A stretch of DNA of 31,485 nucleotides from a virus, in IMG/VR virus record IMGVR_UViG_3300028610_002224, positions 1 to 31,485 of that record; one strand, 5' to 3'. Both the position numbers and the translations under genes were made by a program. Position 1 is the first letter of the stretch, and the number at the start of each line of letters is the position of its first letter. The notes beneath the pieces are model-generated. The model searched no databases. It worked only from the letters and a program-made list of their open reading frames with translations, and had not been told where the DNA came from. This document shows, in pieces, positions 2,905 to 31,349 of the stretch.

Positions 2905-3264
2905 TTAATCCAATTCAAAGAAAAACCTCACAATCCAATATCCTTGAGCTTCATCGACCTTCCTAACTTTTATGTATAATCCTTCTATATCTTCGATTAT
3001 TACAATATCATTTTTTTGGAAGAAGAACATGCTGTTAGGATTAAGGAAGACAGGTATTCCGTTTCTATCTTCGAAAATAATATCTTCTATTGGAGCTATA
3101 GTTCCATCAGAATAATAACCATAGCAATTTTGTATTACTGTCCCTATGCTATCGATAGTTATTATTTTTTGTTTTTTACTGCCATCACTCCCACAGGAAA
3201 CTAATGTAAATATTAATATTATTGAAATTAAGATAGCCGACTTGATAGTTGTTAATTTTTTCAT
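2905..3264 (-). CDS. Predicted lipoprotein
   Basis: This 119-residue protein has a type II signal peptide: MKKLTTIKSA, hydrophobic ILISIILIFT and the lipobox LVSC, with Cys at residue 24. The mature part starts GSDGSKKQK and is about 95 residues of mixed beta-like sequence (IIEDIEGLYIKVRKVDEAQGYWIVRFFFELD). It should be anchored in a membrane after lipidation. Phage lipoproteins are often superinfection-exclusion or receptor-blocking factors; that role is a guess here. A leader containing AAGACGAACCAGGGAGAA lies directly upstream and is nearly repeated before the gene at 1705-2847. Confidence 0.65.
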   Translation of the reverse strand: MKKLTTIKSAILISIILIFTLVSCGSDGSKKQKIITIDSIGTVIQNCYGYYSDGTIAPIEDIIFEDRNGIPVFLNPNSMFFFQKNDIVIIEDIEGLYIKVRKVDEAQGYWIVRFFFELD

Positions 3265-3934: not shown

Positions 3935-4011
3935 TGGTCGGAATGGTAGGATTTGAACCTACAACCTCTTCGCCCCAAACGAAGCCTTCAACCAAATTGA
4001 ATTACATTCCG
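3935..4011 (-). tRNA. tRNA-Pro (anticodon UGG) with encoded CCA
   Basis: On the minus strand this 77-nt segment folds as a tRNA. The acceptor arm CGGAATG pairs perfectly with CATTCCG, followed by discriminator A and an encoded CCA end. The anticodon stem CTTCG/CGAAG encloses a seven-base loop TTTGGGG, giving anticodon UGG and G37. The T arm reads GTAGGTTCAAATCCTAC. C1-G72 and A73 match bacterial proline tRNAs. It lies in the short gap before the holin-like gene. UGG reads CCA and, by wobble, other CCN codons, which would suit an AT-rich genome. Confidence 0.92.
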
Positions 4012-4574: not shown

Positions 4575-4913
4575 TTATACCACTTTGTCTTCATTAGAAG
4601 GCGATCTCTGCCGAGGCTCCGGTAAATTCATTTTTGTGTGGCATCCACCACCATTAGCATTATTATAAGTATTTTTCATTATTTTCAGTTTTGAAAGCTG
4701 CCAACCAGGATTATAGATTCCGTATCGGATATAATCCACGCCGAAATCATCAGTACTAATTCCAACCCAAATTTGTTCACCTTCCAGCATAACCCCATCC
4801 CCGATCACTCGAACGCCAAGAGGAAATGTACCATCCCTTGCATAACTCGAAGGGGTAATGATCAATACCATTGCCAATGTCATTATAAAACATAGTAAAA
4901 TTTTTCTTGCCAC
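4575..4913 (-). CDS. Secreted hypothetical protein
   Basis: This 112-residue protein starts with GTG at 4913, preceded by AAGGAGA. It has a Sec signal peptide (MARKILLCFIMTLAMVLIITPSSYA, cut likely after YA at residue 25-26). The mature part (DGTFPLGVRVIGDGVMLEGEQIWVGISTDDFGVDYIRYGIYNPGWQ) looks beta-rich. The end has GGGCHTKMNLPEPRQRSPSNEDKVV with a lone Cys. It would be exported by the host Sec system. It has its own terminator downstream and a candidate promoter (TTGACA near 4950) upstream, so it may be an independently transcribed accessory gene. I recognise no family. Confidence 0.55.
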   Translation of the reverse strand: MARKILLCFIMTLAMVLIITPSSYARDGTFPLGVRVIGDGVMLEGEQIWVGISTDDFGVDYIRYGIYNPGWQLSKLKIMKNTYNNANGGGCHTKMNLPEPRQRSPSNEDKVV

Positions 4914-6150: not shown

Positions 6151-6573
6151 TTAAAATACAATCTTAGAAATACCTAAAAAATAACAATGATAAAGAAAAC
6201 CTGACGTTGTTACCACCATCACAGCATTTTGTTTAATACCGATATTAACATAAATGAGATTAACAGCTTCTTCAAGAAAACCAGCTTCTATTAATTTATA
6301 TTTTAAAGTAGCTACGAAGTCTGAGTCATCACCCGTTAAATTATCATCTGGCATAATGAGGAAGTTATCTGTATCTTCTAATTTTCGGTAATTGAAATTA
6401 TCGTAAAGAGAATAAAAAATAACCTCAAGGTGTCTTTCTGATCCTATTTTGTATTCATTTGGATTATTTGAATTCCCGGAATTACTACCACAAGAAAATA
6501 ATGTGATGGAAAGTGAAAGGGTTAATGCGATGATTAAGATTGTTGTTGATATTGCGTTTTTTAAGTTTTTCAT
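6151..6573 (-). CDS. Lipoprotein with transglutaminase-like (BTLCP-like) pattern, catalytic residues lost
   Basis: This 140-residue protein has a lipoprotein signal (hydrophobic core to residue 25, then LFSC with Cys at 28 and a Ser/Asn-rich linker). The mature part contains LTGDDSDFVATLKYKLIEAGF and, later, NAVMVVTTSGFLY. The spacing recalls bacterial transglutaminase-like cysteine peptidases (GDC-D-[FY]-A..K...L...G ... HAV.VV), but the catalytic Cys is not in place and His is Asn. If related, it would be an inactive binding form on the cell surface. Its ribosome site is CACGGAGAAAAAACC. The family link is a pattern match by eye. Confidence 0.55.
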   Translation of the reverse strand: MKNLKNAISTTILIIALTLSLSITLFSCGSNSGNSNNPNEYKIGSERHLEVIFYSLYDNFNYRKLEDTDNFLIMPDDNLTGDDSDFVATLKYKLIEAGFLEEAVNLIYVNIGIKQNAVMVVTTSGFLYHCYFLGISKIVF

Positions 6574-13668: not shown

Positions 13669-13974
13669 TTAAAGCATTGATTCTATCCATAATTCTTCAA
13701 GCTTCTCAAGTGCTACAATGCAACATTCTACCTTCGTTTTCCTTTCTATCGTAAAAGAGTCAATACAATAACCAAGCGGTAAATAAACCACAAGATCGCC
13801 ATTTTTAGAAAATATATGATTAAAGCATAGGCAATGAAATTCTAAGTCCTCAATAGCTTTACCTAAACTTTCAATATTAGAAAGGATCTTATTATCTCCT
13901 CTGAATTTAATAGCAGAATTAATACCTCTTTCGACTTCATCGTTTATTACTTTTTCTTCCATTTTATCTGACAT
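13669..13974 (-). CDS. Hypothetical protein
   Basis: This 101-residue soluble protein has no motif I know. It has several cysteines (FHCLCFNHIF, GYCID, VECCIV) that are not arranged as CxxC pairs. The first 25 residues are charged and the centre looks beta-rich (NGDLVVYLPLGYCIDSFTIERKTK), with a helical end (VALEKLEELWIESML). The start ATG overlaps the stop of the upstream lipoprotein gene by one base, so the two are co-translated. Confidence 0.5.
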   Translation of the reverse strand: MSDKMEEKVINDEVERGINSAIKFRGDNKILSNIESLGKAIEDLEFHCLCFNHIFSKNGDLVVYLPLGYCIDSFTIERKTKVECCIVALEKLEELWIESML

Positions 13975-14198
13975 TATTCACCACCTATAACAACCATCGA
14001 TTGATAACCTTTATAACCCTTATAGCTTTTATGAAATAATATCCGTTGGTGTTTATAAGTGAATTCACTCCATCCATTGCCGACATCCTGGATATTTATT
14101 GCGCCAACAGGAAGAACCGCTTTATTTGAACTTTGATTTGAACATCCAGAGACGATTAGAGATAAAAATAAAATTGTAATTAAAATAATTTTTTTCAT
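13974..14198 (-). CDS. Small lipoprotein
   Basis: This 74-residue protein has a classic lipoprotein signal: MKKIILITILFLSLIVSGC, with Cys at residue 19. The mature part (SNQSSNKAVLPVGAINIQDVGNGWSEFTYKHQRILFHKSYKGYKGYQSMVVIGGE) is about 55 residues. It would be held in the membrane facing the periplasm or outside. A superinfection-exclusion or surface-masking role is typical for phage lipoproteins of this size but unproven here. It overlaps the XRE regulator gene by four bases. Confidence 0.6.
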   Translation of the reverse strand: MKKIILITILFLSLIVSGCSNQSSNKAVLPVGAINIQDVGNGWSEFTYKHQRILFHKSYKGYKGYQSMVVIGGE

Positions 14199-16517: not shown

Positions 16518-17115
16518 TATGCTTTCTTTCCTCCCCCTCGTAAGGTCTTCCGCGTTTTGGTTGTGGTGCTTCTTTAAGATTTGAGATATTACGCCAATTT
16601 TTATTTATAAATTCCTGAGCGAGAGATTTTTTATTAAAACCTTCCTTAATCTCAATAGCCCGTCTATCCCACACAGCCATAAAAAGACTATTATAAGTCC
16701 CAATATAAATTTTAAAACTCCCCCTATAATACCAAGCTGTGTATCTACCTTTAAATTTAGTAGGATAAACACCGGGGAGGCCTGTTACACTTGACTTACT
16801 ATGGAAACCACCGTGAGAAAGCATTTTGCAATTCATTTTATATTTCAAGTGATTTCTTATAGCTACATTTGTTACATTAAATAATTTTCCAATTTCACCA
16901 GGAGTATAATCTTTATTCATAAATAAATCATAAGTCATTTCTGAAAAATATTGGTAATTTGTTTTATTTTCTTTGTTGAAATTTTCAATAGCGAGATATT
17001 TATCTTCTCTGAATTGTATTTTTATACTGTCTAATTCTTTGAAATTTAACCATTTACCGTTTGAGTAGACTTCTTTTGATGAATTTTTATTATTGTATGA
17101 TAATTGTTTTTTCAT
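16501..17115 (-). CDS. HTH plus AP2-like DNA-binding protein
   Basis: This 204-residue protein has a helix-turn-helix region with DYTPGEIGKLFNVTNVAIRNHLKYKM (about residues 71-96). An AP2-like domain follows (GLPGVYPTKFKGRYTAWYYRGSFKIYIGTYNSLFMAVWDRRAIEIKEGF), whose three-strand sheet plus helix pattern is known from phage HNH nucleases and from plant AP2 factors. No HNH motif is present, so it may be a stand-alone DNA-binding protein left from a homing-type nuclease, or a regulator. It starts at the end of the methyltransferase-like gene (ATGA overlap). The C-terminus is Lys/Arg/Pro-rich (PQPKRGRPYEG), like an AT hook. Confidence 0.65.
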   Translation of the reverse strand: MKKQLSYNNKNSSKEVYSNGKWLNFKELDSIKIQFREDKYLAIENFNKENKTNYQYFSEMTYDLFMNKDYTPGEIGKLFNVTNVAIRNHLKYKMNCKMLSHGGFHSKSSVTGLPGVYPTKFKGRYTAWYYRGSFKIYIGTYNSLFMAVWDRRAIEIKEGFNKKSLAQEFINKNWRNISNLKEAPQPKRGRPYEGEERKHNEKFY

Positions 17116-17735
17116 TCTTCCTTACCCCATTGTTCGGCCATAGCCTTTGCTATACCAGAAAATGTTTTCGATCTTAACCTTGCTCTCTCTTGGGGTGTTT
17201 TGGCTTTTGCTGCATCCATAAACCATTTTGCCTTTTTTTTACCGCTTTTATATACAACCATTTCCCCTCTATTAACAATTAATGTCGAGGTTAATTGGGG
17301 TAAACCTTTTATCCATAGTAATGTTTTTTTTTGAGCTTCGTGACCATATTCATAAGGTTGGATAATTTGTGTATGTTGTGGTAATTTATATATTTTACTT
17401 GGATAAGGGTTTTCAATAACTATTTTAGGTATATCCGCATTTAATAATTCCATAAAAAAAGACTTAGCCTCTATACCTTTTTTATACCTTTCTTTATTTA
17501 AAACCCCTTTTGGATATAACCAACGTGCGCCAGCATGACTTAAATATGTACATGGTGGGTGCGCTATCATCATATCCCAATTAAGTTTTAATGGTCCAAA
17601 AATATCTTCTTGAAAATGCCATTCAGGATGACCACCACTACAGGGTTCAATATCGCAAGAATAAGCCTCATGCCCCTTCGCTCGAAAAGCCTTGCAAATA
17701 GCCTGACTCTCTTCACATGCAATTAAAATTTTCAT
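17112..17735 (-). CDS. Compact C5-cytosine methyltransferase-like protein, copy 2
   Basis: This 207-residue paralogue of the protein at 9684-10289 shares MKILIACEESQAICKAFRAKGHEAYSCDIEPCSGG, HPPCTYLSHAG (PPC motif), IENPYPS and TFSGIAKAMAEQWG. The middle, which would contact the target base or flanks, differs strongly (RWLYPKGVLNKERY... versus NRSFLSNPERWQQ...). It may modify another site than copy 1. It is coupled on both sides by overlaps to the RecD2 helicase gene (TAATG) and the AP2-like gene. Activity and target are unknown. Confidence 0.7.
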   Translation of the reverse strand: MKILIACEESQAICKAFRAKGHEAYSCDIEPCSGGHPEWHFQEDIFGPLKLNWDMMIAHPPCTYLSHAGARWLYPKGVLNKERYKKGIEAKSFFMELLNADIPKIVIENPYPSKIYKLPQHTQIIQPYEYGHEAQKKTLLWIKGLPQLTSTLIVNRGEMVVYKSGKKKAKWFMDAAKAKTPQERARLRSKTFSGIAKAMAEQWGKEE

Positions 17736-19081
17736 TATATATCACCAAACTCCTCATAATCTTCAAAAACTACTTGATTAATCTCAACTGGCTTCTTATA
17801 TTCTTCAAAACATTTAATAATATTTTGTTCCAACATTGTTAATCTTTCAACGTTGTTCTGATAATTATTTAACATCCCACCAATAGTAGAAAAATCGCCA
17901 ACCGTGATACAGAGCGTTGTTGCTCTTGATAATCCAGTGTATAACCAATTCGAATTACAATGGTATGAAAAAGATCTTTCAAATGGTATTATTATGATTT
18001 TTTCCTGCGACCCTTGGAATTTGTGGCATGTTATTGCATAGGCTAAAATAAGTTTATTACTATTCACAGGAAGTTTAACAAATCTCTCAGGGTCAGAAAA
18101 TTTAACAATCATCTGTTTTCCTACAAATTCCTGAATAAAACCAATATCACCATTTACAATCACACAATCCTCATTATCAACGTCTTTCATCGATCCATTC
18201 TTTGTATTAATAATTTTATCATTAATCCGAAATTTTTGATTTTCAGGTTCGGGCTCTATTTCGCCTAAAAAATTCTTTACAGGAATATATGGGTTTAATT
18301 GTTCTTTTAATAATTGATTAATTGATTCACAGGATAACAAACCCTTCTTATTAACAGGGGAAATTACTTGGATATCATTTACCATATCAAAACCACGAAC
18401 ACCCATCCTTTCCACTAAATAGCCGATTGCTTTTAATGTTTTTTCTGGTGTTTCGCATTGCATATGAACCATATTAATAGGATTTTCAGCTTTTAAATCT
18501 AATTCTTTTGGTTTGTTTGGTGTGTAGACTTCGCCATTCCTGACTTTTGAGCAAGCTTCGACGATTTTTCCCGAATTACGATGGATAATATCAAGTTCAA
18601 TATGCGGTATTTTTCTTGATGAGATCATATCTCTTAATATCGCTCCAACCCCTACTGATGGTAACTGGCCGCTGTCTCCGATCAATAATAGGGTTGTTCT
18701 TTCCGGGTCAACAGCCATTATAAAATGATACATAAGGTTATTATCGATCATTGAAACTTCGTCAAGAATTATAAGATCTGCGAATATAGGATTTTTTTCA
18801 TTACAAATAAATTTAAAATTTCCATCTTCGTCAAAAGTCACTCCAAGAAGAGAATGGATTGTTGAGGCGAACATTCCACTGGTTTCTATAATTCTCTTAG
18901 CTGCTTTTCCTGTAGGTGCCGCTTGTCTTATTATCAGATTTAATTGCAATGCTTTTTTAAGTATATATTTAATCGTTGTGCTTTTTCCTGTACCCGCACC
19001 CCCTGTAAGAATCGAGACTTTATTATTAAAAACCATATCGATTGCTTTTAATTGTTGGGAGGTTAATTTAAATATTGTCAA
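17735..19081 (-). CDS. RecD2-like SF1B helicase, motor half of a split protein
   Basis: The product of about 448 residues carries the SF1 helicase motor. Walker A is ILTGGAGTGKSTT (about 24-36), motif Ia is AAPTGKAAKRI, Walker B is LIILDEVSMID (about 103-113), motif III is LLIGDSGQLPSVG, and the late motifs are YAITCHKFQGSQ and YTGLSRATTL. It should move 5'-3' on DNA. I prefer TTG 19081, which has AGGAGG six bases upstream. ATG 19087 and 19099 are possible but lack usable spacing. The OB/HhH N-terminal part of RecD2 is encoded separately just upstream. The C-terminus reads DYEEFGDI. Confidence 0.82.
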   Translation of the reverse strand: MTIFKLTSQQLKAIDMVFNNKVSILTGGAGTGKSTTIKYILKKALQLNLIIRQAAPTGKAAKRIIETSGMFASTIHSLLGVTFDEDGNFKFICNEKNPIFADLIILDEVSMIDNNLMYHFIMAVDPERTTLLLIGDSGQLPSVGVGAILRDMISSRKIPHIELDIIHRNSGKIVEACSKVRNGEVYTPNKPKELDLKAENPINMVHMQCETPEKTLKAIGYLVERMGVRGFDMVNDIQVISPVNKKGLLSCESINQLLKEQLNPYIPVKNFLGEIEPEPENQKFRINDKIINTKNGSMKDVDNEDCVIVNGDIGFIQEFVGKQMIVKFSDPERFVKLPVNSNKLILAYAITCHKFQGSQEKIIIIPFERSFSYHCNSNWLYTGLSRATTLCITVGDFSTIGGMLNNYQNNVERLTMLEQNIIKCFEEYKKPVEINQVVFEDYEEFGDI

Positions 19082-20102
19082 AATCATCCTCCTCATCATA
19101 GAATTTTATAATACCATCACCATCAATACCACTAAAATCAGATCTTTCAACCTTAATAGCAGTTTTCAACAACGACTCACCACTCATAATCTCTGCCAAT
19201 TTTTGAGCAATATTATTTTCTTTAGCAGCATCATCGACAAACGCATACCAACAAAATTTGTTGCCGGAAGTAACACAACTATGTTTTTTTGTTAAAATAT
19301 CCTCATCAAAAAGAGATTTAACACCTTCATCGCAACCCATAACACCGATTAATAAGGCTGTTTCCTGGATTAATTCACGTTCCTCCACCCATACGTTTCC
19401 ATTTGACATGCGCTCTTTAATAATGTGACAAGTGGCCGCTTTTTTTCTTTCTATGCTTCGTGGGTCCGTTCCTATATCGATTGCCACACGATCAGCCAGA
19501 ATAAAAGAAGTTCCATGGAAAGATGTTAATATGTATGGATTTTTCTTTACAATCTCTGCAGCGTTTGAGCCAAATTTTGTAATTAAGTCGGTTGGTAGAT
19601 TTTTTCTTAAACCCGGGATGTCAAGGAGTGTTCCTAATTCTACCATCACCGCTTCAGTTTTCTCATTATCAAGAAGAGTGGCTTGAATTTCCAAAGCTCG
19701 TTCGCGAGTTATTCCCTTGATGAGTGCTATTTTTTCAGGCTCGTTTTTCATGACGGTTAATGTGTCAGGACCGAAGGTATCAACTAACTCATTTCCGGTT
19801 TTATTTCCCACCCATTTACAAATCCTGGTAATATATTTAAAAATCCCATTTTCATCGCGGGGCAAGACTGTCTCGAAGGAAGAAAAATTTAATTGTTCAC
19901 CGTAGTTTCCGTTTTCTTCCATTTTCCCTGTTAGCTTGTAGGTTAATCCAGTTTGAAAGGAAACTATAGTCCCCTTGGCAGTAAACTCTTTTTTTGTTTC
20001 GGGATCTAAAAAAATGCCTATAACAAAAGAAGTTTCCTGTTTATAGAAAATGGTTTTTTGAAGAATCCCGGTTTTAGTTATTTGCTCTTTATCGTCTGAC
20101 AT
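19068..20102 (-). CDS. RecD2 N-terminal half (OB and HhH domains) as a separate gene
   Basis: This 344-residue protein matches the N-terminal part of RecD2. A beta-barrel segment (TGILQKTIFYKQETSFVIGIFLDPETKKEFTAKGTIV) is followed by helix-hairpin-helix-type segments (YITRICKWVGNKTGNELVDTFGPDTLTVMKNEPEKIALIKGITRERALEI and GLRKNLPTDLITKFGSNAAEIVKKNPYIL). A winged-helix-like region comes before the motor. It stops at 19068, overlapping the motor gene by a few codons in another frame, and ends with DEEDDFDNI. It would bind DNA and complement the motor in trans. Joining the two frames would need a +1 shift. Confidence 0.78.
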   Translation of the reverse strand: MSDDKEQITKTGILQKTIFYKQETSFVIGIFLDPETKKEFTAKGTIVSFQTGLTYKLTGKMEENGNYGEQLNFSSFETVLPRDENGIFKYITRICKWVGNKTGNELVDTFGPDTLTVMKNEPEKIALIKGITRERALEIQATLLDNEKTEAVMVELGTLLDIPGLRKNLPTDLITKFGSNAAEIVKKNPYILTSFHGTSFILADRVAIDIGTDPRSIERKKAATCHIIKERMSNGNVWVEERELIQETALLIGVMGCDEGVKSLFDEDILTKKHSCVTSGNKFCWYAFVDDAAKENNIAQKLAEIMSGESLLKTAIKVERSDFSGIDGDGIIKFYDEEDDFDNI

Positions 20103-25486: not shown

Positions 25487-25531
25487 AAATAAAAAACCCG
25501 TATAACTTGATATTATTAGTTATACGGGTTT
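25487..25531 (-). terminator. Terminator of the fibre block
   Basis: A perfect 13-bp stem (AAACCCGTATAAC at 25494-25506 with GTTATACGGGTTT at 25519-25531) has a 12-nt loop. On the minus strand it runs into TTTTTTATTTTT. It lies 39 bases after the stop of the beta-helix gene. Confidence 0.85.
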
Positions 25532-25569: not shown

Positions 25570-26853
25570 TTAATTCAACTGCGCACCATCGAGCCCAATT
25601 CCTTCGGCTGTATATGATGCTGCGACTTCCGTTTCAAACTCGAAAGCCCCAATATCAAAAATACTGTTTTGCGGGCGTGATATACCTACAATATCATCAG
25701 TTATTCCTTCCGATGTTAAATCAACGCCGTCATCGATACCTGGAGATCCTTCTAATAAAGCATAGCTACCTGCAAATTGTGCATCCTCGTCATGCCCATT
25801 GGCTTCTTGCCCTGTGCCTTGAAATGCTGATAGTGATGAGTAATTAGACCCATCGTACCCAACAAAAATAGTCGTGTTCGAATACATATTATAATTTATA
25901 GTATGCCCCGTACCTGTACCACTCGCCATATAAAGGTCGTAATTACCGCTACTGTCTATTAGATTGTTCTCAAAAATCAACCCAGTTGCGGCAAAGTTTT
26001 CGATACCGTTTGTTGTACTTCCTACAATAGTGTTGTTATATATTTTTGTATTCCCCACGTGTGTAGAAGGTGGGAGGGAAGGGTGGTCGGCAAAAGAAAA
26101 GCCAGTAGCACCACTTGTGTGTATTAGATTGTTGCTGTATTCATTGTCCCTCTGGTATCTTGAGTAAATCCCCCTGTTCGTTCCAAATACCGTGTTGTGC
26201 TTTGCATTGTTCCCGTACCATAATATCTGGGGATCTCTTGAAGCGTCAGGCAAAAAATCAATGCCCGTGTGATCTGCGTCGAAAATTGTATTATACTCTA
26301 TTTCTGTATAATTACAGTCTTTTATTGTCACTCCGTTATAATTTCCGTATATCACATTATTATTGACTGAATTATAATCACCTTCTGCTATTAGTAATCC
26401 TGCGTAAATAGCTGGAGCAGTGTCGTATATCGTACAGTTTCGTATAATATTATAATCACCTTGAACTCTTACCCCTACGTTAGACCCTCCCGTCACATTC
26501 AACCCATCCCATATAATATAATCATGGTCAGATATCCAATCGACTACCGCCCATTGCCCTTGTGTTCTTCCATCTATAGTAACGACATCTGCCTGATAAT
26601 TTTTAAAAGTAATGGGGAATCCTGAAGTCCCCGATTGCGTCATACTTATAATATTTGCATTATAAGTACCTCCCAAAACATACGCTGTGTCCCCTGCGAC
26701 TAAAGTGCCGGTAGCTTTTCCAATTGTCAACCAAGGGAGTTCGAATGTTCCCGCATTTCCATCATTTCCCACTGTCGCAACATAATACTCAGCAGACTGT
26801 ACTGATTGGCACATAATTAAAAAGATAAATACTATTGATGTTAAAAATTTCAT
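25570..26853 (-). CDS. Parallel beta-helix protein with signal peptide
   Basis: This 427-residue protein has a signal peptide (MKFLTSIVFIFLIMCQSVQSA, cut likely after residue 21). The opening AEYYVATVGNDGNAGTFELPWLTIGKA is typical of DUF1565/pectate-lyase-like beta-helices. Repeated coils follow, such as NIIRNCTIYDTAPAIYAG, NSVNNNVIYGNYNGVTI and TEIEYNTIFDADHTGIDF. It could be a polysaccharide-binding or depolymerising tailspike. The C-terminal ASYTAEGIGLDGAQLN is nearly the same as the end of the protein encoded next to it (26867-27952), although the bodies are unrelated. Predicted export is odd for a virion protein. Confidence 0.75.
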   Translation of the reverse strand: MKFLTSIVFIFLIMCQSVQSAEYYVATVGNDGNAGTFELPWLTIGKATGTLVAGDTAYVLGGTYNANIISMTQSGTSGFPITFKNYQADVVTIDGRTQGQWAVVDWISDHDYIIWDGLNVTGGSNVGVRVQGDYNIIRNCTIYDTAPAIYAGLLIAEGDYNSVNNNVIYGNYNGVTIKDCNYTEIEYNTIFDADHTGIDFLPDASRDPQILWYGNNAKHNTVFGTNRGIYSRYQRDNEYSNNLIHTSGATGFSFADHPSLPPSTHVGNTKIYNNTIVGSTTNGIENFAATGLIFENNLIDSSGNYDLYMASGTGTGHTINYNMYSNTTIFVGYDGSNYSSLSAFQGTGQEANGHDEDAQFAGSYALLEGSPGIDDGVDLTSEGITDDIVGISRPQNSIFDIGAFEFETEVAASYTAEGIGLDGAQLN

Positions 26854-26866
26854 CCCGCCTCCCCAC

Positions 26867-27952
26867 TTAATTTAAAATTACACCATTTAAGCTGATTCCT
26901 TCGGCGGTATATGATATTGTTTCGCCAAAATTAAAAGAAAAACCAGCTTCTGGAATCCCTGATTCTGGAATAACAATCAAAAAGGCATTATCCCCAAAAC
27001 TACCTTGATTGACAGTAGCCGTTATTTCATTTGCCCCCCAAGTGACAGGTATTTGCATTTCAATATGGGTGCACGATGAATAAGTCGCGTTATCGCCCAC
27101 AACGACTCTAGCCCATGTTGTATCTATATAGATATCATCGTAATAATAAGTTGCTCCATAATTCGGGTTGCTATTGCCAGAGCATTCGAGATAATTCTCA
27201 AAATAAACAGCATTGATTAAATTGCCGGAATCATGTATTTGAACAGCGTCAAGATCTAAAGTACTTGATGCTGTCCCCGGTGTTCTTAGCCACGCCTTGT
27301 ATGCCCCATCAGCAACCCCGACACTCCCAAGCTCTATCTCTATGGTATACTGTGACCATACATCCTGATCGAGATAGTCTGCTGAAAAATAATTTGTTCC
27401 TGCGCTTCCGTTGTAATTTTGAATATACTGTGACCATGCATTAATTGCGAGTGTTCCTTTCCACGTAAAAAAAGCTAAATCAGGATATACCGGATCGCCA
27501 TCCACCTCAACCGCTGAGGGGGTTCGCCCTGCTTTAATCTGACATATAACATCAGTAGGCGACGGATTATTTGGCTTGAACCAATACGAGAAAAACAATT
27601 TTCCTGTTGCTGCTGAACCTATATTATTTGACCAAAAGTGAGCAGCCTTATTAGGGGTGCCTCTTGTCATTACTGCGCGAATATTACGCGTACTATTACT
27701 ACTCCGCTGGTTGGTGTCCGATATATCAGCCTGTTCGTTATTATCTCTTGAGGTCCAAAATGCATCCTCATCATCTATCCATTCTCCGACCGTATACCCT
27801 TCGCTATCTGTGTAGTTTGTCGGGGCTGCTGTCGCCTTTGTCCCAAAACCCGAGCCTGAAATAGTAAAAACCCCACCGTCTTGAGTTACGCTTGTTACTG
27901 TTGCGAATGATACAGCGGGTATAAGTAGTAATATTACTATTGATAACCTCAT
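26867..27952 (-). CDS. IPT/lectin-like beta-sandwich protein with signal peptide
   Basis: This 361-residue protein has a short signal peptide (MRLSIVILLLIPAVSFA). TVTSVTQDGGVFTISGSGFGTKA follows, resembling an IPT/TIG domain start. The middle (GKLFFSYWFKPNNPSPTDVICQIKAGR... WSQYTIEIELG... GAYKAWLRTPG) looks like a concanavalin-like lectin sandwich. The end is EITATVNQGSFGDNAFLIVI and then SYTAEGISLNGVILN. It would bind surface glycan or form part of a fibre. Its stop and the next gene's start are arranged in tandem with the beta-helix gene. Fold assignment is by pattern only. Confidence 0.65.
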   Translation of the reverse strand: MRLSIVILLLIPAVSFATVTSVTQDGGVFTISGSGFGTKATAAPTNYTDSEGYTVGEWIDDEDAFWTSRDNNEQADISDTNQRSSNSTRNIRAVMTRGTPNKAAHFWSNNIGSAATGKLFFSYWFKPNNPSPTDVICQIKAGRTPSAVEVDGDPVYPDLAFFTWKGTLAINAWSQYIQNYNGSAGTNYFSADYLDQDVWSQYTIEIELGSVGVADGAYKAWLRTPGTASSTLDLDAVQIHDSGNLINAVYFENYLECSGNSNPNYGATYYYDDIYIDTTWARVVVGDNATYSSCTHIEMQIPVTWGANEITATVNQGSFGDNAFLIVIPESGIPEAGFSFNFGETISYTAEGISLNGVILN

Positions 27953-28524
27953 TAGTGGGCCTCATAATTTGCTATTGACATTGTTAATTTCCGTGTTGTC
28001 AAGGTACTGTATGCGGTATTGCAATTGGGTGGGGAGGCTTCAAACCCGCCCTGATCCCCTCCGGGTTCATCGTAATAATAAGTCAAACTGCTTGAATTGT
28101 CTTGATAAAATTGTATTCTATAATTCCCTGCGGATAATGCTATGGGTACGGCCCATGTTACATGATTCCATTGTGGAGACATAGGGATTGATGCCGACTC
28201 AGTTGAACACGTACCTTGCTGTGTATCAGATGTATTATATATAGCCATATATATCGTTGATGTTCCACTACCAGAGTCAAGATACACATAACCATCCGAG
28301 ACTGTAATACCGCCAGCAGGGACGGTTATATCAAGGTATAGCCCCCCTTCGCTTGACCAGCTTGCGTCCGAGCTACCTATAGTTGTGTACCCAATTTCCA
28401 AGTCTTCCCCTCCACCAGCAATCCTCTTTCTCGCAATAACTGACTTGTGCATATCAGTTATTCCAGCAAAAGCAATACAAGGCAAAAGAAGAAATATAAT
28501 AAGTAATTTAATTAATTTTTTCAT
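27952..28524 (-). CDS. Small beta-rich secreted protein of the fibre block
   Basis: This 190-residue protein starts with a signal peptide (MKKLIKLLIIFLLLPCIAFAG). The mature part is beta-rich: GYTTIGSSDASWSSEGGLYLDITVPAGGITVSDGYVYLDSGSG... YRIQFYQDNSSSLTYYYDEPGG. The pattern suits a jelly-roll domain as found in fibre tips and carbohydrate-binding modules. Its stop overlaps the next gene's start by one base. I do not recognise a specific family. Confidence 0.6.
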   Translation of the reverse strand: MKKLIKLLIIFLLLPCIAFAGITDMHKSVIARKRIAGGGEDLEIGYTTIGSSDASWSSEGGLYLDITVPAGGITVSDGYVYLDSGSGTSTIYMAIYNTSDTQQGTCSTESASIPMSPQWNHVTWAVPIALSAGNYRIQFYQDNSSSLTYYYDEPGGDQGGFEASPPNCNTAYSTLTTRKLTMSIANYEAH

Positions 28525-28538
28525 AATTAGCTACCTCC

Positions 28539-31349
28539 TTATTCCGCTGTCCAACCATTTGTTGTAATTAGCCAATCATCAACCGTATAATACTGGTAGC
28601 ACGCAATATCACCAGATGTTGAAAGATTGGTTATATTCGCACCTTCTGCGCCCGTTACACCATCAAGGAGATAGCCATCCGCCGCGTTATTATCTGATAC
28701 AACTTCAATAGCCCCGCTTGTTATAATCGTGAAGTGCATATTTATTAGCATCGCAGGGATAACTAAATCACCAGTATCGGAAGTTACTACATATGTTCCA
28801 CCATATAAATTAGCTCCAGTAAATCCGGCTGCAAACGCAGTTGTTGAACCCGAAACCGGAGTTAGTGCTTTTGAGCTTCCTGTGGTTTTTGTGTAGTCTA
28901 CAGAGTTTGCAGCCATTTCAGCAAGTTCAATATCACCAGCTTGTAGTGTAGTGTTAATCTGAAATTTAACTTGATTATCCGAACCATCTACGATCATAAA
29001 ATCTGTCCATGCACCTGAAGCGTCACCACCATCTTTATATTGAAAAGTTATGTCTGAAACAACGGCTCCTGCTGTTACAGTAGTTGCGTTTGCAAATATA
29101 CGTGCAATGGTTTCATCAGCATCTAAGCTGTTAGAATCATCAAAGCTTAGTGTCGGTGTCGTTGTGGCTCCAGAAGCTAAACCGCTTGCAGCCGTAATCG
29201 TTCCCGTAACGGTTAAATTGTCCCCGTCAAAGGTCATATCAGCGTCCCCTTCCAGCGTCCCATCTCCGGTCCATACCCCAACTTGATCGTTTACAGGTGT
29301 GCCGACTTTGGTGACATCTCCTGAACCAGCGGGGGTTTGCCAAGAGCTTGTACCATCACCGTCTTCCCTAAGGTATTTAGTCCCTCCGACTTCTCCAGTT
29401 GATAGAACAGCGGTTCCCTCGGGTGGACCCTCATCACCTGTGTTAGTTCCCGAGGTATTTCCTATAACAACCGATTCAGCATCAGTAACATAATTGGTGT
29501 CTGCTGGTAGGTTAGTTCCATCAACTCTAATAAAAATATTGCTAAGAATATCCGTTGTTGTCGGGATAGAAAGTCGAGAAACTGTTGTGCCTTCCTGGTA
29601 AATGGCTACGGTTGCGCCGGAGCCACCACCAACATTTGCGAACAATTTTACGATTATTCGGTCAGTTGTTAATAAATCTGTATCACTCAGCGTATTGGCA
29701 TGTAGCTCAAACTCTGCCTTGGTAACTATCAACCCCGATGTTTCAGTTGTTATAATTAAAGTTTCAGTGCCACCAGAAGCCCTTTTGTAAACTTCGGCGT
29801 ATATATTTACATCACTATTACCCGCCGTTCTCTCGGCATGAAAATGAACGCTAAATATTCCAGATGGGATCACCAAAACTTCCGGCTCACCCAATAGGGT
29901 AGCATAATTATTGAGAGCCTGATCATTTGTGGATGAGGCTAACCCCACGGTTGTTATCGTGGATTCAACAGCACCAAGTCCAATATTTGTCATATCTGTA
30001 TAAATCCCACCAATATCAGAAGCGGTATCATTGAAAAAATAATCAATATCTATATCGGCAGTTGAGTCAAGATAGTTACGGTTAATAGCGTCTGTGCCTA
30101 ATGTCGGATCAGCTACAGAGGTTATTCTCTGACTTCCCATGTCAATTTCACCAGTGTCATTGATAGTTGGGGCTCTCCCCTGAATACGTCTACCTGACAC
30201 CCCATCAAACGCTACAATTGCATTATCCGTTGAACTTGCTGCACCCCTGACATTAGCGCCATTAATTTTCACGTCAAATGAGCCGTTATTTGCCGCCGTA
30301 AGAACCTTTCCTATCGACACAACAATATTGTCACCGGTCGGAGCGACATTCGTTAAAAAACCTACTGTTGAGGCACTTAAAAATATTTCCTCACCCGAGG
30401 CCCACGTTTCACCGTAGGGGCTTCCATCTGTGTCTACTCCGTTTATGGTGCCACCCCACGTTGCAACACCATTTTCATTATTAAGTATTTGATGGGTTGT
30501 GACTCCTAAAACCATGGATGTAGATCCAGAATCCGCTTGTGCCTCTGCGATTGTGGCCCTGTTCCCTACGGCACCAGTTTGATAAACTGGAACGAAATCA
30601 TTAATAGTACTCCCCGAGTCATTCCTTACCTTTGTCCATGATTCAGACCCAAGATTCAATTTTACATTGGATATAGAATTATAAAAAGACAACTCATCAT
30701 CGTCGGTGTCATAAAATAATAGACCTGCTGAATGAGCGGGGGCAGTTATTGCGGTAAAATCAGCCGAATTGATATCAGCCATATTATCTGAACCATCTAT
30801 TAAAATGCCAGAATTTTTGATTGTTTTCCCGCCCGATCCATCAAAGACTACGATTGCGGTATCTGTTGCACTCGCGGGACCATTTACATCACCCGAGCCT
30901 GAAGAAACTTGCCAAGAACTTGTACCGTCACCATCTTCTCTTAAAAACTTTACACCACCTACCTCACCAGTTGATAAAACATCTGTTCCTTCAGGTGTTC
31001 CGGTTGCAACAGAAACAAAGGGGTCACCCGCTGTTCCAGCCCCGGTAATCGTTACACCATCACCGACCTGATCACCTGTGTTTGTTCCAGTATCAGCTTC
31101 AGTAACCTTTGCTGTATTCGCAATAATAGCGTTGCTTTGACTTGTCGTTATCCCTGTCTTGGCATCATTTAGTGTAGTTCTGGTATCAAGATCATCATCA
31201 TTAGCTTGAATAGCTGGTCTTAATGTTGCATCCCAAAAACCTTCAGTTGGAATAGCTGTCTGTGCTGAATAAAGATTTCCTGCAAAGAAAACCACCAGCA
31301 TTAGGATAGTAAATGTTAATGTTCTTGCAAAAAACCTTAAGAATTTCAT
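28539..31349 (-). CDS. Large fibre-like protein with signal peptide and repeated module
   Basis: This 936-residue protein starts with a signal peptide (MKFLRFFARTLTFTILMLVVFFAGNLYSA, cut likely near residue 29). The mature part is Gly/Asp/Thr/Ser-rich with typical phage-fibre phrases (TGTNTGDQ, DFTAITAPAHSAGLLFYDTDDDELSFYNSISN, GSQRITSVADPTLGTDAINRNYLDS). A module GTDVLSTGEVGG...LREDGDGTSSWQ...GSGDV occurs at about residues 121-154 and again at 643-678. The end looks like a compact tip (GTYVVTSDTGDLVIPAMLINMHFTI...). It probably forms a trimeric fibre. The ribosome site is AAAGGAAAAGGA. Confidence 0.75.
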   Translation of the reverse strand: MKFLRFFARTLTFTILMLVVFFAGNLYSAQTAIPTEGFWDATLRPAIQANDDDLDTRTTLNDAKTGITTSQSNAIIANTAKVTEADTGTNTGDQVGDGVTITGAGTAGDPFVSVATGTPEGTDVLSTGEVGGVKFLREDGDGTSSWQVSSGSGDVNGPASATDTAIVVFDGSGGKTIKNSGILIDGSDNMADINSADFTAITAPAHSAGLLFYDTDDDELSFYNSISNVKLNLGSESWTKVRNDSGSTINDFVPVYQTGAVGNRATIAEAQADSGSTSMVLGVTTHQILNNENGVATWGGTINGVDTDGSPYGETWASGEEIFLSASTVGFLTNVAPTGDNIVVSIGKVLTAANNGSFDVKINGANVRGAASSTDNAIVAFDGVSGRRIQGRAPTINDTGEIDMGSQRITSVADPTLGTDAINRNYLDSTADIDIDYFFNDTASDIGGIYTDMTNIGLGAVESTITTVGLASSTNDQALNNYATLLGEPEVLVIPSGIFSVHFHAERTAGNSDVNIYAEVYKRASGGTETLIITTETSGLIVTKAEFELHANTLSDTDLLTTDRIIVKLFANVGGGSGATVAIYQEGTTVSRLSIPTTTDILSNIFIRVDGTNLPADTNYVTDAESVVIGNTSGTNTGDEGPPEGTAVLSTGEVGGTKYLREDGDGTSSWQTPAGSGDVTKVGTPVNDQVGVWTGDGTLEGDADMTFDGDNLTVTGTITAASGLASGATTTPTLSFDDSNSLDADETIARIFANATTVTAGAVVSDITFQYKDGGDASGAWTDFMIVDGSDNQVKFQINTTLQAGDIELAEMAANSVDYTKTTGSSKALTPVSGSTTAFAAGFTGANLYGGTYVVTSDTGDLVIPAMLINMHFTIITSGAIEVVSDNNAADGYLLDGVTGAEGANITNLSTSGDIACYQYYTVDDWLITTNGWTAE

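Follow-up and report, generated by a model that had tools for sequence, protein, structure and literature searches.

Four adjacent fibre-type genes of an uncultivated tailed phage encode proteins with predicted Sec signal peptides

The window analysed here is the whole of the IMG/VR virus record IMGVR_UViG_3300028610_002224, a stretch of 31,485 bases from an uncultivated tailed phage, and the element in question is a block of four minus-strand genes close to its right edge. In transcription order these genes come first in the window and encode proteins of 936, 190, 361 and 427 residues (Table 1); the term "fibre block" is a fair description of them. With gaps or overlaps of no more than 15 bases between neighbours, the four genes look like a single transcription unit closed by a terminator-like hairpin. 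Upstream of the block, the right edge of the window holds the tail of another open frame, approximately 25 codons long.

Table 1. Positions of the four genes, their predicted leaders and associated features in the window.
Feature	Coordinates	Strand	Remarks
936-residue exported fibre-like protein	28539-31349	-	open reading frame, leader, tail-fibre homology, shared C-terminal domain
Predicted signal peptide of the fibre, ~29 residues	31263-31349	-	cleavage site least canonical of the four
190-residue exported small beta-rich protein	27952-28524	-	jelly-roll-like by eye only
Predicted signal peptide of the 190-residue protein, AFA/G	28465-28524	-	cleavage-matrix call
361-residue exported protein, IPT/TIG-like + ConA/PL14-like jelly roll	26867-27952	-	low-confidence model
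Predicted signal peptide of the 361-residue protein, SFA/T	27902-27952	-	cleavage-matrix call
C-terminal 15-residue stretch of the 361-residue protein, SYTAEGISLNGVILN	26870-26914	-	alike to beta-helix C-terminus
427-residue exported right-handed beta-helix protein	25570-26853	-	PF13229, PF05048; PL9/GH136/GH120-like fold in the model
Predicted signal peptide of the beta-helix protein, VQS/A	26794-26853	-	cleavage-matrix call
C-terminal 15-residue stretch of the beta-helix protein, SYTAEGIGLDGAQLN	25573-25617	-	alike to C-terminus of the 361-residue protein
Terminator-like hairpin + T run, 3' of the four-gene block	25494-25531	-	-18.1 kcal/mol, z -5.6

All four proteins were called as bearing a Sec signal peptide for signal peptidase I, with a positively charged n-region, a hydrophobic core and small residues at positions -3 and -1. 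The predicted leaders, each followed by the first residue of the mature protein, are MKFLRFFARTLTFTILMLVVFFAGNLYSA/Q in the fibre, MKKLIKLLIIFLLLPCIAFA/G in the 190-residue protein, MRLSIVILLLIPAVSFA/T in the 361-residue protein and MKFLTSIVFIFLIMCQSVQS/A in the beta-helix protein. Calling combined rules for the n- and h-regions with an approximate von Heijne-type cleavage matrix. The best cleavage scores were 8.2 for the fibre, then 9.7, 10.7 and 11.5, so that the block proteins hold four of the five top scores among the 45 open reading frames (ORFs) of the window. With nine of these 45 called exported, a set of four given genes would lie wholly among them by chance with a probability of 8e-4. 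False calls of the leader rule amounted to 0.4% of shuffled N-termini overall (2.2% for those of the four block proteins), none of 94 internal methionine starts and one of 32 spurious plus-strand ORFs.

Both the rule calls and the scores bear out the original prediction that each of the four proteins starts with a signal peptide, and their export, as predicted from the leaders, is well supported. The A-x-A-like cleavage site also ascribed to them holds overall; the fibre site conforms only roughly (Y-S-A/Q or L-Y-S/A by eye, with the matrix favouring two residues downstream), and the beta-helix site reads V-Q-S/A. A lipoprotein reading of the beta-helix leader, which contains LIMC, was rejected because methionine preceding the cysteine is unfit for a lipobox. 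Predicted exported proteins are not confined to the fibre block in this phage and are common elsewhere too. Five further small proteins were called exported (816-1157, 2905-3264, 4575-4913, 6151-6573 and 13974-14198), three of them lipoprotein-like.

Among the block proteins, only the 936-residue fibre contains modules homologous to phage tail fibres, located in its middle at approximately residues 200-360. These central modules are common to the tail fibres of Pseudomonas phage Rollin, Roseobacter phage CRP-6, Acinetobacter phage phiAC-1 and others. Those homologous virion-type fibres are leaderless, whereas the window fibre begins with a predicted signal peptide and not, as a cytoplasmic fibre may, with an N-terminal virion-docking domain. 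Its C-terminal domain (residues 803-924) is shared with the exported fibre of phage contig L094 (42% over 127 residues), and a short piece is shared with the exported fibre of contig L090; a search for the domain in 493 genomes of two phyla gave no match and hence no candidate host. Judged from these matches, the fibre combines modules seen in cytoplasmic tail fibres of other phages with a domain of another, predicted exported phage fibre. The 190-residue protein gave no family match.

The 361-residue protein is consistently read as an IPT/TIG domain interrupted by a ConA/PL14-like jelly roll, as far as its low-confidence structure model can be followed. In this model the IPT/TIG domain occupies approximately residues 14-47 and 281-343 (Z 9.7 over 76 residues), and the jelly roll approximately residues 43-280, with a match to 5gmt at Z 7.5 over 163 residues, a fold-search value in the range below 8 that may reflect only a common arrangement. 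Fold matches include PL14 alginate lyase and lectins; at the sequence level the protein had no Pfam match and did not reach the cut-off of the PL14/PF14099 polysaccharide-lyase models. The 427-residue protein scores above cut-off to the beta-helix families PF13229 (E 3.2e-21) and PF05048 (E 7.8e-11). Its model, with a predicted local distance difference test (pLDDT) value of 70, matches lacto-N-biosidases, the pectate lyase Pel9A (1ru4; template modelling score, TM-score, 0.65) and a GH120 xylosidase. Sequence matches to 3vst and 5olq agree with these fold matches, and the Pel9A-like Pfam score is below cut-off. The C-terminal stretches of the 361-residue and beta-helix proteins are alike, with 36 of 51 bases identical, and could possibly represent a shared docking tag or a remnant of recombination. 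The homologues in L090 and L094 likewise share an ending, RGTVPLGDMR.

In single-protein scans of viral contigs, the fibre and the 361-residue protein found no relatives and the beta-helix protein only two distant ones; strict DNA patterns for a fibre motif and for the shared C-terminal stretch had no match in viral contigs, and tblastn against 50,697 phage records returned partial matches only. Relatives of the 361-residue protein were recovered with a DNA pattern for the motif D-D-[IV]-Y-x-D-[ST]-[ST]-x-A-R-V, which lies near its C-terminus and is therefore blind to the N-terminus. The motif was found in eight IMG/VR contigs, and the homologue has a leader in all six with an intact start (L090, L095, L092, L093, L094 and L096; five distinct contigs, as L095 is a near-copy of L090, with the L094 leader judged by eye). 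The leader sequences differ.

These homologues have exported neighbours of 277 and 250 residues in L090, 547 and 263 residues in L094, 1259 residues in L096 and 150 residues in L092; in L093, a neighbour of 356 residues appears exported by eye and one of 198 residues has a hydrophobic start of uncertain nature. Where the contigs reach far enough, packaging genes come next: the L090 cassette is followed by terminase (phrog_38, E 4e-57) and portal (SU10 portal, E 1e-12) genes, the L096 cassette likewise, and in L091 and L097 there are open frames that match those genes in size. A beta-helix motif scan added two further exported blocks, one of three exported genes amid genes that look lysis-related by eye (L010/L087) and one with terminase and portal on the same contig (L014/L088). 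An exported cassette recurs beside packaging genes in related phages. Exported ORFs make up 17 of 21 inside the related cassettes vs 1 of 87 outside, a count not used as proof, since leaders were already considered when the cassettes were delimited, which makes it partly circular. In the window, capsid, portal and terminase genes were not recognised among the proteins scanned, and the downstream order differs from that of the related phages because replication genes come after the block.

Several single genes of the related contigs may be recorded beside these cassettes. The 1259-residue exported protein (L096:7458-11237) has a weak, below-cut-off match to polysaccharide deacetylase. Beside the related beta-helix gene of L087 lies a 117-residue exported protein (L087:7632-7985), which by eye resembles a small outer-membrane beta-barrel and ends in YNF. 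Another phage (L003:5641-8762) encodes adjoining jelly-roll-like and beta-helix proteins, both leaderless, as a cytoplasmic counterpart useful for comparison. A homologue in Marinobacter phage PS6 has no leader even when read from a longer start.

Relatives of two of the block proteins also occur in cells. Beta-helix relatives in genome contigs number 66; 34 of the 46 scored were called exported, and several others look exported by eye. Among genomes sampled by phylum, the 361-residue family was found in 3 of 395 for the phylum of a Desulfobacteraceae metagenome-assembled genome (MAG), in 3 of 198 for the phylum of a Nitrospirae MAG and, as partial matches, in 3 of 398 for that of Pleionea; none was found among 296 genomes sampled from the phylum of a Bacteroidetes MAG, nor in the genomes first reached through beta-helix loci. 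In L110, L111, L112, L116, L117 and L118, the homologues lie amid glycosyltransferase-, flippase- and other polysaccharide-like genes. Flippase and glycosyltransferase scores back this context for L110, L111 and L112, and the L111 locus includes, by model score, PrsR, PrsK, an XrtA-type amidotransferase and a nucleotide-sugar dehydrogenase. Judged by such gene content, the cellular homologues sit in exopolysaccharide (XrtA/PEP-CTERM) clusters. Furthermore, the homologue in L113 passes the PF14099 (Polysacc_lyase) cut-off (E 3.9e-8), and that in L110 scores below cut-off to PL14 and PF14099.

Altogether, we lean modestly towards the reading that the block is a phage cassette whose products are exported and act on polysaccharide of the host surface, and the results suggest that related phages send such proteins to the host sugar coat and not only into the particle. 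Each of the four proteins, presumably expressed late, would be made as a Sec precursor, cleaved by signal peptidase I and released past the inner membrane into the periplasm or to the exterior of a probably Gram-negative host. There, the beta-helix and PL14-like jelly-roll proteins would bind or trim exopolysaccharide, and the fibre and the 190-residue protein would serve as exported adhesins. The likely benefit would be that progeny are freed from the matrix, and that receptors are masked or removed so that progeny and rival phages avoid adsorbing to infected cells or debris. Among the consequences drawn in the original prediction, an effect on the capsule or exopolysaccharide of the host, or secretion of depolymerases, is supported by the clusters that hold the homologues, by the lyase and glycosidase matches in sequence and fold, and by the exported cassette recurring in other phages; assembly of virion fibres in the periplasm gained no support. 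Several observations weigh against the polysaccharide reading. The structure model of the 361-residue protein is poor (pLDDT 52), and the phage beta-helix protein lacks the K-D-G motif that many of its cellular relatives have and may therefore only bind. In addition, both the tail-fibre modules of the fibre and the virion genes adjoining the related cassettes fit virion parts as well.

The alternative that survives best, and is still unlikely, is lysogenic conversion, in which a prophage-expressed unit would coat or remodel the host surface for adhesion or superinfection exclusion in the manner of lambda Lom. The Lom precedent and the surface-type character of the exported proteins are in keeping with it, and the GC content of the block (42% over 25570-31349 vs 32% in the rest of the window) is compatible with a separate origin. 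However, no integrase was recognised in the window, no prophage copy of the cassette was found in the bacterial genomes sampled, and the related cassettes stand in line with late genes. Rather unlikely, too, is that the proteins are virion parts after all, which would fold in the periplasm once past the inner membrane and join the tail from outside during or after lysis. The homology of the 936-residue modules to tail fibres, the position of the cassette beside TerL and portal in related phages, and the match of the exported 277-residue protein of L090 to a tail-fibre PHROG (E 3.8e-5) would suit such a route, whereas relatives of the 361-residue and beta-helix proteins function in bacteria as exported proteins without a virion, and the papers searched gave no precedent among tailed phages. 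Lower still, as improbable, we place the proposal that a tailed phage exports its fibre set by the host Sec system and completes the particle with it beyond the cytoplasm, in the course of lysis or afterwards; if true, this would be an assembly route for which those papers give no description in tailed phages. That the block encodes virion proteins whose hydrophobic N-termini stay uncleaved and serve as docking helices or membrane anchors (a baseplate-docking helix was named in the original prediction as its possible refutation) is highly improbable despite the least canonical cleavage site of the fibre, because the leader sequences differ and the cellular relatives of two of the proteins are exported; moreover, what the four leaders have in common does not go beyond signal-peptide features, leaders of varying sequence are retained in cellular and phage homologues, and no comparable start is present in the cytoplasmic fibre homologues from other phages.

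The remainder of the window provides the setting of the block. Its recognised genes, all on the minus strand, encode a primase (relatives scattered, at 27-30% identity), a D5-like helicase, an ERCC4-type nuclease, a RecD2-like helicase, an exonuclease, a Gp3-like protein and a PolB-exonuclease-like protein. The Gp3-like protein had no relative in the single-protein scan of viral contigs and no phage match either. The RecD2-like helicase (17735-20102) is split over two frames with a 32-base overlap, an OB/HHH part followed by an ATPase part, possibly a split gene, a frameshift or an assembly error. A tRNA-Pro gene (anticodon TGG) lies at 3935-4011 on the minus strand. Two similar genes of approximately 200 codons were also noted, of which that at 9684-10289 matches a DNA-methyltransferase PHROG and that at 17112-17735 resembles its paralogue, judged from the N-terminus.

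Annotation would label genes of this kind as tail fibres, taken to be cytoplasmic virion parts, but the recurrence of an exported cassette beside terminase and portal genes in several uncultivated phages implies that some "fibre" genes are probably host-surface agents, for example secreted receptor blockers or matrix-acting proteins. Through the cassette, fibre modules of phages become linked to bacterial proteins of exopolysaccharide clusters, and its leaders, their cleavage, the localisation of the proteins, glycan binding and adsorption are all directly open to experiment.

The papers searched contained no multi-gene exported fibre cassette next to packaging genes, which is weak evidence of novelty because the search was open-access only. 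Exported phage proteins as such have been described, among them exported endolysins (PMC6116005). Porphyromonas gingivalis phages have signal-peptide genes and exported prophage proteins that, like the cassette, bear Sec leaders and are thought to alter the host surface; these are proteins of unknown kind, and no fibre cassette was noted among them (PMC10367356). In phage lambda, the exported protein Lom is encoded within the tail-gene region (PMC12309495), and it and similar morons resemble the cassette in being phage-encoded and exported. Lom, however, is a single outer-membrane beta-barrel, whereas here four fibre-, lectin- and beta-helix-type proteins are predicted to be exported together, and on the cassette side the comparison is drawn from the leaders and, in relatives, the gene location. 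Phage soluble and tailspike depolymerases likewise direct beta-helix and jelly-roll folds at surface polysaccharide, but tailspikes are leaderless and assembled in the cytoplasm, whereas the cassette proteins have Sec leaders and putative enzyme activity. WceF of Pantoea stewartii, which belongs to an exopolysaccharide cluster, is an exported enzyme with a tailspike fold (PMC7949094). Its phage-tailspike-like beta-helix acts on exopolysaccharide, and the homologues of the 361-residue protein are likewise located in clusters of that type; WceF is a bacterial protein exported by the Tat route and equipped with a P22-like head domain, whereas the phage proteins have Sec-type leaders and other sequences.

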